This document shows, piece by piece, positions 10,257-27,977 of a DNA stretch of 64,000 bases. The stretch spans positions 1 to 64,000 of IMG/VR virus record IMGVR_UViG_3300033233_000001; one strand, 5' to 3'. A program made the translations under genes and the position numbers. Every line of letters begins with the position of its first letter. Positions within the stretch are counted from its first letter, which is position 1. Origin of the DNA: a virus. The notes beneath the pieces were generated by a model that searched no databases, was not told the origin of the DNA, and saw only the letters and a list, made by a program, of their open reading frames with translations.

Positions 10257-10357
10257 AGAAGGCCAGAGCACTGTCGAAGCCGCTTCCGAGGCCCTGGCCG
10301 GACGACATCGAGGTCGGCCAGGCAGTCTCGTTCGACTTGAAATCCTCCGCTCCCTAG
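10253..10357 (+). pseudogene. 5' part of a small gene cut by the TnpB element
   Basis: A GTG overlapping the previous stop (GTGA) opens a 34-codon frame beginning VKKARALSKPLPRPWP. Its last codons come from the end of the transposable element, where it hits TAG. The frame on the other side of the element (11682-11822) may be its lost 3' part. Whether the two halves were one gene is inference. Confidence 0.4.
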
Positions 10358-11680
10358 CCCGGAGGCTGAGGAAGCGGATTCCCAGGCTCACGCCCAAGAT
10401 CTTCCTGCTTCAACCCCGACCGCACCGGATTCCGAAGAACACGATGTCTTACACCAGGTCCACAGGCAGTCACCGCGAGACCCGCGGCCAGTTGTCGCAG
10501 TCCAGCTGCGAGAACGTTACGTGCAGCATTCACGTCGCGGTCGTGCTCAGCGCCACACTCTGGGCACTGCCATTCGCGCACGCTCAGCGGCAGGTCATCG
10601 AGAAGATACCCGCAGCAGCTGCATGTCTTGGAACTCGGAAACCAACGGTCGACCTTGATCAGGGTACGACCGTACCACTCGCACTTGTACTCCAACTGCC
10701 TCACCAACTCGCCCCAGCCGACATCGCTGATGGCCCGTGCCAGGCTCCGGTTCTTGATCATCCCACTGACGTTGAGACCTTCAACCGCGATCACTTGGGT
10801 TTCGCGAACGAGGTTGGTCGTCAACTTGTGGAGATTGTCCAGACGCCGGTCTGCTACGCGAGCGTTCAACTTGCCGAGCTTGATGCGAGCCTTGTCCCGA
10901 TTCTTCGAGCCTTTCTTTTTGCGCGCGAGACTGCGCGACAGGAACCTCTTGCGCCCGAGTTCACGGTCGTCGTGACGCGGGTTCGCGACCTTTTCACCCG
11001 TCGAGAACGTAACCAGCGACGTGATGCCCAGGTCAAGGCCGACGGCGCTCTCGATGGGCAGCGGCTTCAAGCGCTCGACTTTGTCCTCGCAGAGCAGCGA
11101 GACGTGCCAGCGGCCGGCAGCGTCGAGACCGACGGTCACGGTCGAGGGGTCGACGTTCTCCGGAAGCGGACGACTCCAACGGATGCCGAGCGGCGTGTCC
11201 ATCTTCGCGAGGGTCAGCTTGCCGTCGCGCCAGGTGAACGCGCTACGCGTGAACTCTGCGGAGCCACCGTCACCCTTCTTCTTGAACCTCGGGAACCTCG
11301 CTTGTTTCTTGAAGAACCTCTGCCGAGCACCGTGCATGTGCCGCAAGGCCTGTTGGAGCGGGACACACGAAACCGTGTTCAGCCAAGCGAATTCCGGCAG
11401 CTTCTTCCACGCCGTCAGGTGGGCACTCTGCTTGTTGTACGTCGGCGACTTCTTGGTCGCCGCGTACGAATTGTTGCATTCGCCCAGGCTATGGTTGTAG
11501 ACCCAGCGTGCACAGCCGATTGTCCGACGCAGCAGGGGCTCCTGCTCGGGCGTCGGGTAGAACCGGTAGCGGAAGCCGCGGAGGACCACGCGCAGAGCGT
11601 AGGGCACTTCGGCGACGAGATCAAGAACCGTTTCCTCCCCTGCCTGCAAAGCCGAGGCAGGGGTTTCCACGGAGGATCCT
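10337..11680 (-). mobile_element. IS200/IS605-family element carrying tnpB only
   Basis: A TnpB gene flanked by GC-rich imperfect palindromes: about 11633-11661 (CCCCTGCCT pairing with AGGCAGGGG) upstream of the gene and about 10341-10376 (CCTCCG pairing with CGGAGG) downstream. No TnpA lies inside, so movement needs a transposase in trans. The 5' end abuts CATC (minus strand, 11684-11681). The exact ends are estimates. Confidence 0.65.
10354..11589 (-). CDS. tnpB: TnpB RNA-guided nuclease
   Basis: A 411-residue TnpB. The N-terminus VVLRGFRYRFYPTPEQ is the typical TnpB opening, so the GTG at 11589 is preferred over the longer frame. All RuvC parts are visible: Asp in AVGLDLGITSL, Glu in VIAVEGLNVSG, a zinc finger with CSCCG and CPECG, and the last Asp in DRDVNAARN. 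TnpB proteins of this family cut DNA using an RNA read from the element's right end and favour element retention. Nothing suggests it is broken. Confidence 0.9.
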   Translation of the reverse strand: MVLRGFRYRFYPTPEQEPLLRRTIGCARWVYNHSLGECNNSYAATKKSPTYNKQSAHLTAWKKLPEFAWLNTVSCVPLQQALRHMHGARQRFFKKQARFPRFKKKGDGGSAEFTRSAFTWRDGKLTLAKMDTPLGIRWSRPLPENVDPSTVTVGLDAAGRWHVSLLCEDKVERLKPLPIESAVGLDLGITSLVTFSTGEKVANPRHDDRELGRKRFLSRSLARKKKGSKNRDKARIKLGKLNARVADRRLDNLHKLTTNLVRETQVIAVEGLNVSGMIKNRSLARAISDVGWGELVRQLEYKCEWYGRTLIKVDRWFPSSKTCSCCGYLLDDLPLSVREWQCPECGAEHDRDVNAARNVLAAGLRQLAAGLAVTACGPGVRHRVLRNPVRSGLKQEDLGREPGNPLPQPPG

Positions 11681-12446: not shown

Positions 12447-13409
12447 ATGGGCGACATGGACGAGCGAGAGCGGATGATCTTGGAGAACGAGCTTCTTCTC
12501 AAGCGCGAGCAAGAAAAGCGCGCCTGGTACGACAGACGAACGCAGCACCGCGAAGTCCTCGAAGCGGCGTACCAGCGGGAAGCCGCTGAAGCCGCTTCGT
12601 GCGGTCGCGCAGAAGCCGCCGCGGAGATGGCGGCGGAGCGAGAGGACGGCGCTCAAGCCTACGCACGCATGCTGCTGCTCGGGCGTCGCCAGGCGGCGGC
12701 GCTCACGACGTGTGTCGAAGCTCTCGAAGCTCTCGGGCGCGAGAGTGACGTCGCGGACGCGGAGAAGGTCGACCAGTCGCGCGACCACGTCCTGCGTGCG
12801 CTACGCGCGAACTTCTTCCAGCCGCCGGAGACGGCGTGGGAGCGCCTGGAACCGCTCTTCAAGGACATGCTGCCGATGATCGCGCCGATCATCGCGAAGG
12901 CGCAGACGCCACCGATCGTCGGGGGCATGGGACCGCTGTACCCGCCGCCAGCGCCATGCGTGCGGCCCGCCGCTCTGGAGGCGCCGTTTCTCTTGCCCGG
13001 TCAGATGGTGCGCACGCCGCTGGGTCTGATGCGCCTCGTGATGACCGGGGACGGACGGCTGATGTGCGAACGGCTTCAGTACGAGCGGACGCCGGGCTGG
13101 GGCGAGGTCAGGCAGACACCCGGCCCGTCGGTCGGCGACAACGAGTTCGACTGCAACGTGCCCGACTACGAGCCGCTCGTGACGCCCGCGCCCGCGCCAG
13201 ACGTGCAGGACGCGCCATGGGGAGAGGCGAGCGTCCCCCTCGTGCGGTACTGGGCCTCGATTCGTGACAGCCTCTCGGACGCTGATCTCGAAGAGGCGAT
13301 CCGCTTGGCGAACATCGAGCGCATGGACCGCATGGCCAAGCGCGTCGGCGCGGCCGCGACGGCCGATCCCCGCGCCGTCGTCGGCGACATCTACAGCGTC
13401 GCGGGCTGA
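12447..13409 (+). CDS. Hypothetical protein with N-terminal coiled coil
   Basis: A 320-residue protein. The first 70 residues are highly charged and helical (coiled-coil-like); the middle has a Pro-rich hydrophobic stretch (LPMIAPIIAKAQTPPIVGG); the C-terminus is helical. No enzymatic motif. It follows the zinc-ribbon gene by 10 bases with a good GGAG ribosome site. Its 3' end overlaps the converging minus-strand gene by 19 bases. Confidence 0.6.
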   Translation: MGDMDERERMILENELLLKREQEKRAWYDRRTQHREVLEAAYQREAAEAASCGRAEAAAEMAAEREDGAQAYARMLLLGRRQAAALTTCVEALEALGRESDVADAEKVDQSRDHVLRALRANFFQPPETAWERLEPLFKDMLPMIAPIIAKAQTPPIVGGMGPLYPPPAPCVRPAALEAPFLLPGQMVRTPLGLMRLVMTGDGRLMCERLQYERTPGWGEVRQTPGPSVGDNEFDCNVPDYEPLVTPAPAPDVQDAPWGEASVPLVRYWASIRDSLSDADLEEAIRLANIERMDRMAKRVGAAATADPRAVVGDIYSVAG

Positions 13410-24099: not shown

Positions 24100-24909
24100 A
24101 TGACCTACCGAGCGGGCGTGCCGCTGTATGACCTTGACCTGCGTCGGGGCTCGTCGTTTTACACCGTGAACGCCGTGCCGATCCCTTCCTGGCGCTCGGT
24201 GCGAGCGCTGTACGGGCTCGGGGAGTCGCCGGCCCCGGCGCAGTTGGGTCGGATCAAGACGGCGGACGGCTGGTCGTACCAGATCACGCCGGAGGACGCG
24301 CTCTGGATCGCACGCTCGATCCAGTACGAGGGCGGGAACAGGATCGCAACGCTCTGGACCTACGCGCAGAGGCTCGCGCAGCGCCGCGGCACGAATCTCG
24401 CGACGCTCGTGCGCGGGCACAGCCAGCCGGTGAACCCGATGTGGGCGTCGGCGACGGCTTCAGGCTGCGTCGCGCATCCGGACCGGTGCACGCCGGCACA
24501 GCTTGCGCGCCGGCAGGAGGCAGCGACCCGACAGTGGGATGACCTGTCGTCTGCTTCGACAGTGCTGCGCTGGGCGCAGGCATACACGCCGAACGTCGTG
24601 CCGCGCGCGACGGACTTCGCCGACGCGACCGTCTCGCGGCACTTCTTGAGTCAGAACCCGCAGGCACGGGTCGTGATGCGCGACGGCAACTGGTATCTCG
24701 CGGAGGGCGCTGATAGCGCGCCGCGCGGTGGATCGATCGGGTGGCCGGAGAACTACGTCACGATCGAGTATGAGAGCCGGGTCGCTCGCCGAAGCCTCTT
24801 GGCCGGCGTGCCAAGCTGGGTTCCGTTTGCGGTGGCCGGGGGCGGTGGGCTGCTCGTGCTCGGCGGCGTCGCGGTCTGGGCCGCACGACAGCCGAAGGCG
24901 AAGATCTAA
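24100..24909 (+). CDS. Membrane-anchored cell-wall-hydrolase-like protein
   Basis: A 269-residue protein. The segment ALWIARSIQYEGGN with a central Glu (about residue 74) and the Trp/Arg-rich helices after it resemble SleB- or lysozyme-like hydrolases and the gene at 9492. Residues about 240-260 form a membrane span (VPFAVAGGGGLLVLGGVAV) followed by a short basic tail. A C-terminal tail anchor without a signal peptide suggests action at the membrane or in the virion. The catalytic role is inferred. Confidence 0.5.
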   Translation: MTYRAGVPLYDLDLRRGSSFYTVNAVPIPSWRSVRALYGLGESPAPAQLGRIKTADGWSYQITPEDALWIARSIQYEGGNRIATLWTYAQRLAQRRGTNLATLVRGHSQPVNPMWASATASGCVAHPDRCTPAQLARRQEAATRQWDDLSSASTVLRWAQAYTPNVVPRATDFADATVSRHFLSQNPQARVVMRDGNWYLAEGADSAPRGGSIGWPENYVTIEYESRVARRSLLAGVPSWVPFAVAGGGGLLVLGGVAVWAARQPKAKI

Positions 24910-24925: not shown

Positions 24926-25903
24926 GTGAACTTCAAAAGCTACATCGTGTTGTTGCTGCTCGTCCTGTTTCCGTCGTGCGGGCCTCGTCCGCCTGATTCG
25001 GACGCTGGTCCGCCGGATTCTGGTCCGCCCGAGTTGACGCGCCTGCGCATCATCAACGGTTCGACCGGGACGCTCTGGATCTTCTATCAGATCGGCTCCG
25101 GCGGCGGCTCGATGTCAACGGCGCATCAGGTGCAACTCGCAGCAGGCGGACACATCGACTATCCGATCCCTGACGAAGGCCTCGCGGCCACTCGCTTCTG
25201 GGCAGGGTCTGGATGCGACGACACGGGGAACAACTGTGCGATCGGTCAGAGCGGTGGTCCCACGAGCGAGGGCTTCAACTGCCCGACGTACGGCTGTGCT
25301 CCGCCCGTCGACAGCAAGTTCGAGGGCACCTTCGGCTGTCTGCCGTCGGTGCCGACTGCCGACTGTCAGATCAACCCGTCGAGCCCGACGAGCGCGCCGC
25401 TTCCTACTACCGACTCCTGGGACACCAGCATGGTCGACGGCTTCACGCTGCCGTTCCGCGTCGACGTCATCGGCGACTGTCCGGGCGGCCCGACGAGCAA
25501 CGCGATCGACTGCTCGATGTTGCCGATGAGTATGTGTCCGACGGCCGAAGACCTCTCGACCGGCGGCATGTTCCCGGCGCTGGCCGCTGAGGACATGGAC
25601 GTCACGAACCCGTCGACGATGGCGATTGCCGGCTGCTACGCCGACTGTGCGCGCCTCACGTTCTCTCAGTGGGGCGGCCTCTCGTACGCGCCGGCTTCTC
25701 CCGAGGCGCAGATGTACTGCTGCCCGACGCCGCCGATCTCGCCCGATGCGTGTCGCACCGGGCCTGTCGCGAGCACGGGCTACACGGATCTTGTGCATCG
25801 GACCTGTCCGCAGGTCTATGCCTACTCGTACGACGACGGGACGGGGCTGTTCTCCTGTCCGGCCGGCGTGCGGTACGAGGTCACGTTCTACGCGGCGCAG
25901 TAG
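24926..25903 (+). CDS. Thaumatin-like lipoprotein
   Basis: A 325-residue protein. A lipoprotein signal (YIVLLLLVLFPSC, Cys18 in a lipobox) is followed by a PDSDAGPPDSGPP linker typical of myxobacterial lipoproteins. The rest matches thaumatin-like (PR-5/GH64-related) proteins: LRIINGSTGTLWIFYQ, RFWAGSGC, then DTSMVDGFTLPFRVDV, CYADCARLTF and CPQVYAYSYDDGTGLFSC, with many cysteines for disulfides. Family members bind or hydrolyse beta-glucans. GTG 24926 has a good AAGGAG site. Cargo of this kind on a phage-like element is unusual. Confidence 0.85.
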   Translation: MNFKSYIVLLLLVLFPSCGPRPPDSDAGPPDSGPPELTRLRIINGSTGTLWIFYQIGSGGGSMSTAHQVQLAAGGHIDYPIPDEGLAATRFWAGSGCDDTGNNCAIGQSGGPTSEGFNCPTYGCAPPVDSKFEGTFGCLPSVPTADCQINPSSPTSAPLPTTDSWDTSMVDGFTLPFRVDVIGDCPGGPTSNAIDCSMLPMSMCPTAEDLSTGGMFPALAAEDMDVTNPSTMAIAGCYADCARLTFSQWGGLSYAPASPEAQMYCCPTPPISPDACRTGPVASTGYTDLVHRTCPQVYAYSYDDGTGLFSCPAGVRYEVTFYAAQ

Positions 25904-25911
25904 GCAGCCGC

Positions 25912-26196
25912 TTACGACGCTCGGGCTGCCCGGCTGGTCGCGCGCCGCCGCGCCGGTGGTTTTCGGAAGCGGATGACACGCCCCGGCATTTCCCACAGAG
26001 CCAGTGCGCTGACATCGCGACCGTCTCCGAGTGCGAGGCCCATGCCCTCGTCGACGACGCGCACGTTTTTCGCGCTGCGCACCCATGGGAGTTTCATTTT
26101 GACTACGGTGATCGAACCGTTGACGCCGAAAAAGAGACGCACCTCGTTCTTCGTGAGCCACTCGGCCATGCGCAGCAGCGGGTATGACTTGGACAT
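25912..26196 (-). CDS. DUF2442-like protein, partner of DUF4160
   Basis: A 94-residue protein with the DUF2442 layout: EVRLFFGVNGSITVV, VRVVDEGMGLALGDGRDVS and a basic tail. Such genes commonly sit next to DUF4160 genes, as here, and have been proposed as antitoxin-like partners. Five bases separate it from the DUF4160 gene upstream. Confidence 0.6.
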   Translation of the reverse strand: MSKSYPLLRMAEWLTKNEVRLFFGVNGSITVVKMKLPWVRSAKNVRVVDEGMGLALGDGRDVSALALWEMPGRVIRFRKPPARRRATSRAARAS

Positions 26197-26201
26197 TTCG
26201 G

Positions 26202-26477
26202 TCACCTCACCTTCGGCGGCGGGATCTTGAGCGGCGTTGTGCCAGCCTGCGCAGCGTCCCATGCGGCCTGTAGCTCGTCGCGTCGCAGTTCGATGAACGC
26301 CTTGATGAGCTTCTTCCCGGACGGGTGCATCTTTCCAACGATCATCGAGCCGTCATCGAGCGCGAACGATGCGGCATATTCCGCTGCGAAGGCGTGAATA
26401 TGTGGTCGATGATGCTGTGCGTTCTTCTCAAAGAAGACCGCGATAACGATCCCGTAAAACCTGCACAACTCGGCCAC
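26202..26477 (-). CDS. DUF4160-family protein, possible toxin
   Basis: A 91-residue protein with the DUF4160 signature: FYGIVIAVFFEKNAQHHRPH followed by IHAF, then DDGSMIVGKMHPSGKKLIK and RRDELQAAWD. The family is found beside DUF2442 and is suspected to form toxin-antitoxin-like pairs. The biochemical activity is unknown. Confidence 0.75.
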   Translation of the reverse strand: MAELCRFYGIVIAVFFEKNAQHHRPHIHAFAAEYAASFALDDGSMIVGKMHPSGKKLIKAFIELRRDELQAAWDAAQAGTTPLKIPPPKVR

Positions 26478-26948: not shown

Positions 26949-27977
26949 CTAGCCGATGATCGGCCCTGCCATCGTCACAGCCGCTTCGCGCACGCGCCGC
27001 AGGCTGTTGACGAGCGACGGCGGCGGAGCGCGTAGCTGGCCGAGGTAAAGGCGCGTCGCGTTAGGCCACGCGAGATCGAGGAGCCGCTGCGCGTCGTGCA
27101 GACGCACATCGTCTCTCTCGTCGCCGTCGCGGTCGGCGAGTCGCCGAAGACCACGCAGTACCTTGACCTTCGCCGGGTCGAGACCCGCGCGCACGGCGGC
27201 ACGTTTGACGATCGTCCAGATGACGTCGTTGTGCAGCGGACGTTCGGGGTCGAGGCCGGGCGCGATCGGACACGCTTTGGCCTCGCCGAAGACGCCGCTG
27301 TCGGGTCCCAGCCGCTTCAGTCGTCCGGCGCTGAGCCAGTGCGCCTGGATCGCGGTGTACGCCTCGTCGGGTAGCTTGAAGTTTTTCGGACCTCTCTTGC
27401 CAGTGACGCGATAGGTACGAGGTGACGTCGAGAGGCTGAGGTCGCGGATTCGCAGGTCGGCGACTTCGGATCGTCGCCGCCCGGTGTAGGCGAGAAAAAT
27501 AAGGACCGCGCGATCACGCATGCCGATCGGATCTGTCGGGAGTGCGTCGACCATCTTCTGGAAGTCGGCCCACTCGACGCCGGTCGCAGTGGTCGTCTCG
27601 TCGTCTGGGAGCACGTCCTTACGCCCGAGGAGATCGAACGGGTTCCGAGAGATGGTCTTCTTGTGTGCGAGGAACGTGAAGAACGCGTCGACGGCCGCGA
27701 GGCGCGTGCAGATCGTACTTTTCGAGTAGCCGTAGTTGACGAGGTAGCGCTTGTACTCCTCGGCGTCTTCGGCCGAGACCGAGCACAGGTCTTTCCACTG
27801 GACCAGGTCGAGGAACTGTCGGACACCATGTCGATACGTGCGCCGCGTGTTCTTCGGCTTGTTGACCAAGAATGCGTACATGGCGGCCACGATCGCACGC
27901 GTACGGTCGGGGTCGTCGCCGCCGATGGGCACGACATCGGATTCCGCTACGGACGAACGAGCTAGATTTTCGGCCAT
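26949..27977 (-). CDS. Tyrosine recombinase / integrase
   Basis: A 342-residue protein with an N-terminal SAM-like core-binding domain (MYAFLVNKPKNTRRTYRHGV) and a catalytic domain. The first Arg is in TGRRRSEVADL (around residue 167). Where HGLRH and GH are expected it has RGLRR and AW, then a candidate Tyr in TRLYL (about residue 310). So the box-II His is absent and Trp replaces the second His, a substitution known in FLP. ATG 27977 is preferred to an upstream TTG because a TTGATT/TAGAAT promoter ends just before it. It would integrate, or resolve, the element. Confidence 0.8.
   Translation of the reverse strand: MAENLARSSVAESDVVPIGGDDPDRTRAIVAAMYAFLVNKPKNTRRTYRHGVRQFLDLVQWKDLCSVSAEDAEEYKRYLVNYGYSKSTICTRLAAVDAFFTFLAHKKTISRNPFDLLGRKDVLPDDETTTATGVEWADFQKMVDALPTDPIGMRDRAVLIFLAYTGRRRSEVADLRIRDLSLSTSPRTYRVTGKRGPKNFKLPDEAYTAIQAHWLSAGRLKRLGPDSGVFGEAKACPIAPGLDPERPLHNDVIWTIVKRAAVRAGLDPAKVKVLRGLRRLADRDGDERDDVRLHDAQRLLDLAWPNATRLYLGQLRAPPPSLVNSLRRVREAAVTMAGPIIG

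Follow-up and report, generated by a model that had tools for sequence, protein, structure and literature searches.

A thaumatin-like protein gene with a lipoprotein-type signal carried as inserted cargo on a phage-like element

The gene at positions 24926-25903 of the 64,000-nt stretch analyzed here (the window), which belongs to a 297,749-bp linear IMG/VR virus record (G000), encodes a thaumatin-like protein (TLP) and is inserted cargo on the DNA of a phage-like element. The best reading of its sequence is that of a predicted surface-anchored protein, glucan-binding and probably glucan-cleaving. TLPs have been studied almost solely in plants, fungi and animals, and in the open-access literature we found no relevant report on thaumatin proteins of phages or myxobacteria. 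The gene, its parts and its surroundings are as follows.

24100-24909, + strand: upstream flank gene, 269 aa, with an MTYRAG start and a C-terminal hydrophobic segment; 78% to L130 5983-6810
24910-26948: about 2.0 kb extra in G000 relative to the syntenic virus contig L130, which has 48 bp between the flanking homologues
24926-25903, + strand: TLP gene, 325 aa, from the ORF, its start and the PF00314 match
24926-24979, + strand: signal peptide with lipobox-like LFPSC and predicted lipidated Cys18, from the sequence and the Cys kept across complete phage copies
24980-25033, + strand: Pro/Asp/Gly-rich linker, from the sequence
25037-25888, + strand: thaumatin domain with cleft residues R90, E133, D166, D171 and D303, from Pfam, alignment and Foldseek with a low-confidence model
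25912-26262, - strand: DUF2442 protein, likely antitoxin partner; DUF2442 was matched by Pfam within the gene set, and its assignment to this ORF follows from the position by the DhiT-like gene
26202-26477, - strand: DUF4160/DhiT-like toxin (NF048015, E 4.7e-17, below the model's curated cut-off)
26949-27977, - strand: tyrosine recombinase on the other flank, with XerC/XerD-type matches; 61% to the L130 homologue

The TLP matched a single Pfam family, PF00314 (Thaumatin), with an E value of 1.7e-16 and a score of 60.9 bits (curated cut-off 27.4), bearing out the domain that an earlier note had read from the letters of this DNA. Sixteen cysteines follow Cys18, which is the classical TLP number, and 10 of 12 plant cysteines are matched in the aligned parts. 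Acidic-cleft residues, which that note had also considered, were in part recovered by alignment with a plant protein: R90, D166, D171 and D303 fall on four of the five cleft positions of cherry TLP (2ahn), while the fifth residue, a glutamate (E133), is invariant among relatives but offset by one residue in this alignment. In place of D166, G003-G007 and many of the bacterial copies have Asn. The solved chains closest to the protein are TLPs, plant ones mostly. With an AlphaFold model of poor quality (pLDDT 43), all 27 Foldseek matches at E < 0.001 were TLPs, which, given that pLDDT, we take as supporting evidence only.

The reading frame starts with GTG at 24926, with AAGGAG upstream, and stops at 25903. 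Its codon usage is typical for the record (58th percentile), and dN/dS among phage TLP copies lies between 0.10 and 0.20 (0.2 for the window gene versus L014), meaning that the gene is under purifying selection in phages. Together with the Pfam score, these values show that the ORF is not a chance match. No sigma-70-type site was found for the gene, and the one terminator-like hairpin, at 25940, is weak and no better than chance.

The N-terminal signal, ending at Cys18, is of the lipoprotein type, as the same note had proposed. The LFPSC lipobox is atypical, with F at -3 and P at -2; it failed a strict PROSITE-type pattern and passed a loose one. A signal ending in Cys was kept in 10 of 10 complete phage TLP copies examined and is likewise present in relatives from Nannocystis. 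When a simple and crude lipoprotein rule was applied to 465 genes of the record, only the TLP and one 83-aa ORF passed it.

A search for homologues in Myxococcota and phages, called for at the outset, returned bacterial proteins that bear on function. The nearest to be considered are thaumatin-like lipoproteins of Nannocystis (L023-L025), which show 58-60% identity to the window protein and share the signal ending in Cys followed by a linker; they differ in being chromosomal, in having a Ser/Thr-rich linker and in branching outside the phage pair G000/L014. Gammaproteobacterial TLP fusions with CBM6, CBM56 and GH16 (Hahella, Cellvibrio, Microbulbifer; L028-L038) are 46-50% identical over the domain, but they are large secreted multidomain proteins, whereas the phage form is a bare domain with an anchor signal. 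Specific combinations among the bacterial relatives include CBM56 plus GH16 (L036), GH16 plus CBM6 (L038), CBM6 (L034, L028) and CBM56 (L033). Few Myxococcota genomes (14 of 379) have PF00314; in one of this phylum, a TLP-like lipoprotein gene adjoins a gene for a PF11790 (GH128-like) glycosidase (E 3.4e-54).

The fusion of bacterial relatives to GH16, CBM6 or CBM56, or their position beside a GH128-like gene, makes beta-1,3-glucan the suggested target; the beta-glucan target put forward in the earlier note thus gains support at one remove, from the fusions and neighbors of relatives. CBM56 binds beta-1,3-glucan, and TLPs have been grouped with GH64 beta-1,3-glucanases (PMC13251364). Beta-1,3-glucanase activity has been tied to TLP clefts (PMC3048497, PMC11800479), while in many TLPs binding is not accompanied by cleavage, and a fungal thaumatin-fold family related to them showed no activity on laminarin (PMC13251364). 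Taken together, the fusions, the glycosidase neighbor and these papers make a glucan-directed surface lipoprotein the best reading. With the characterized PF00314/CAZy GH152 proteins (Lentinula edodes TL glucanase, PR-5, osmotin; PDB 2ahn, 7p22, 7p23) the window protein has in common the domain, the 16 cysteines and the acidic-cleft residues; it differs from them in being phage-encoded, in its lipoprotein-type signal, in its longer domain and in the cleft Glu that is one residue off.

The explanation we favor, to which we give about an even chance, is that of a moron-like cargo of a jumbo phage, whose product would be exported, lipidated at Cys18 and placed on the outer membrane, there to bind and probably cut beta-1,3-glucan to the benefit of the phage. 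We infer that a jumbo phage of a Gram-negative host, probably a myxobacterium-like one judging from the relatives and the style of the linker, would have acquired the gene. After export by Sec, the protein would stay attached to the outer membrane of a cell that is infected or lysogenic, and its linker would extend the thaumatin domain outward. The acidic cleft would then bind beta-1,3-glucan and probably cut it, as GH152-type thaumatin-like enzymes do. What the phage would gain is an altered glucan around the infected cell: exopolysaccharide of the cell itself or of its neighbors might be changed, so that release and spread become easier, or glucan of fungi or algae might serve as food.

The earlier note had expected such cargo to be rare in viruses, and so it proved. 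No TLP relative was found in 50,697 GenBank phages, and eleven other virus contigs (L014-L022, L136, L140) were found to carry one, counts that are lower bounds because the collections were searched with short peptide patterns, which overlook distant TLPs. The carriers include near-identical pairs (L015/L016 and L018/L019), and a terminase is present in two of them, G001 and G002. These two share 44 genes with each other, and 13 and 8, respectively, with G000; the TLP is the only gene common to G000 and G003-G006. In the TLP tree, from which a wrongly framed row (L111) was left out, a single phage clade was rejected (AU p 0.0003), and its well-supported branches require the phage label to have been gained or lost three times or more, indicating that phages acquired TLP genes more than once. 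How many acquisitions there were is less certain, since L022 is a long branch; the data are compatible with a phage clade of G000, L014 and L016 but do not demand it (AU p 0.43).

Independent acquisition by several unrelated viruses suggests that the TLP helps infection. We tentatively consider, as a possibility that falls short of even odds, that jumbo phages unrelated to one another have convergently taken up a membrane-anchored thaumatin domain that remodels surface glucan, for exopolysaccharide management during infection or for the exclusion of rival phages. As separate observations on the carriers, genes for patatin-like phospholipases occur near the TLP gene in two phage groups (L014 4817-5749 and L019 14867-15688), and small proteins with the shared start LRxKLIRLAHxNPELRAxLLPLLK are encoded on both sides of the L014 TLP gene (L014 6990-7872 and 10984-11280).

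In G000, the TLP gene sits in an insert whose other content is the DhiT/DUF2442 toxin-antitoxin-like pair, and the corresponding site in L130 is empty. Neither the L130 contig nor any of five contigs from the same family has the TLP; all of them may be incomplete. Repeats at the insert edges are only short and chance-like, and codon use of the DUF2442/DhiT-like pair is unusual (8th-11th percentile). The product of 24100-24909, described in the earlier note as cell-wall-hydrolase-like, matched no Pfam, PHROG or NCBIfam family, and that description was dropped. The insert recalls phage morons and lysogenic-conversion lipoproteins, which are similar to the window protein as inserted cargo with predicted export and a lipoprotein-type signal; we are aware of no example that has a thaumatin domain.

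This arrangement, with a single lipoprotein of predicted export as cargo and with a toxin-antitoxin-like pair and a tyrosine recombinase beside it, would also suit superinfection exclusion, in which the TLP would mask or occupy a surface glycan or receptor and block adsorption of other phages, with no need for glucan cutting. Phage exclusion lipoproteins are known, and the TLP is retained in unrelated phages. However, nothing links it to adsorption and its bacterial relatives point to glucan degradation, and we regard exclusion as an unlikely account of the gene. Quite unlikely, too, is a late role in lysis or egress, in which, as infection comes to its end, the protein would help to break the envelope or the polymer around it. 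In G002, a GH24 lysozyme gene (PF00959, E 1.4e-36) does lie about 1.2 kb downstream of the TLP gene, and the interval encodes a short protein that may be a membrane protein; yet no recognized lysis gene adjoins the TLP gene in G000 or G001, its G000 neighbor lacks a hydrolase family match, and the TLP is missing from close relatives.

The content of the record agrees with its being viral. GC is even along G000, the TLP gene matches the record in GC and codon use, and coding density is about 0.9 (genes were called with a simple caller, stretch by stretch, so that small genes may be wrong and border-crossing ones may be cut). About 30 tRNA genes of many isotypes lie within about 15 kb (L007 9060 to L008 3859). 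The record encodes RNA ligases, helicases, a DNA polymerase and adenylosuccinate-synthetase-like and ParB-like genes, and also NAMPT, ADP-ribosylglycohydrolase and TnpB-type genes; the NAMPT is nearest to those of a 642-kb phage and Myxococcus phage Mx1.

A virion-type gene block (L009 8913-14104) is conserved in eight other virus contigs (L085-L092). It contains a capsid candidate (L009 11738-12451) with 70-72% identity to its homologues, no match in PHROGs, PDB or GenBank phages, and no copy in 379 Myxococcota genomes in a search for integrated relatives run without a positive control; its AlphaFold model was unusable (pLDDT 29). Structural proteins of G000 gave no match to GenBank phages. 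For the large terminase, phrog_2, PF03237 and PF17289 were silent in this linear, perhaps incomplete record, and searches of it for an FtsK-type ATPase or a known capsid family came back empty. An Rfam search of the window and L009 returned nothing.

Some further observations concern the record at large. ORFs at 10617-11633 and 12554-13159, near the capsid candidate in L009, look like homing endonucleases and seemingly interrupt the virion block. Proteins starting with MSYRA/MTYRA...GLG are frequent (L009 to L011, record 204-253 kb; L002; L003; window 24100-24909) and have a hydrophobic segment, with a C-terminus that is often rich in Arg/Lys; these proteins and the absence of a terminase match may jointly be a sign of an unusual, perhaps membrane-containing, jumbo virus group. 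An adenylosuccinate-synthetase-like protein (L004 13581-14942) is probably the phrog_1211 (PurZ-type) match and could point to 2-aminoadenine DNA. TnpB/IS605 OrfB-type genes occur at window 10354-11670, for which the window gene set holds a matching IS200-type transposase family, and at L007 12960-14210.

The IMG/VR class, gene content and synteny with L130 agree with the earlier note in placing the TLP gene on phage-like element DNA, and nothing points to a host chromosome. That host DNA was misjoined or miscounted as virus, the TLP being an ordinary bacterial one on a plasmid or chromosome piece, is very improbable: the silent terminase, FtsK and capsid searches and the existence of bacterial relatives would fit it, but both flanks are syntenic with a virus contig, composition matches the record, the tRNAs, RNA ligases and other phage genes are present, the virion-type block recurs in other viruses and two other carriers have a terminase.

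If the reading of the TLP as glucan-directed phage cargo holds, an anchored thaumatin-like protein encoded by phages and acquired repeatedly would be a new kind of surface-modifying phage cargo. It would mark beta-glucan as a polymer that is important where phages meet myxobacteria-like hosts, and the phage protein would offer a simple system for probing the function of bacterial thaumatin domains.
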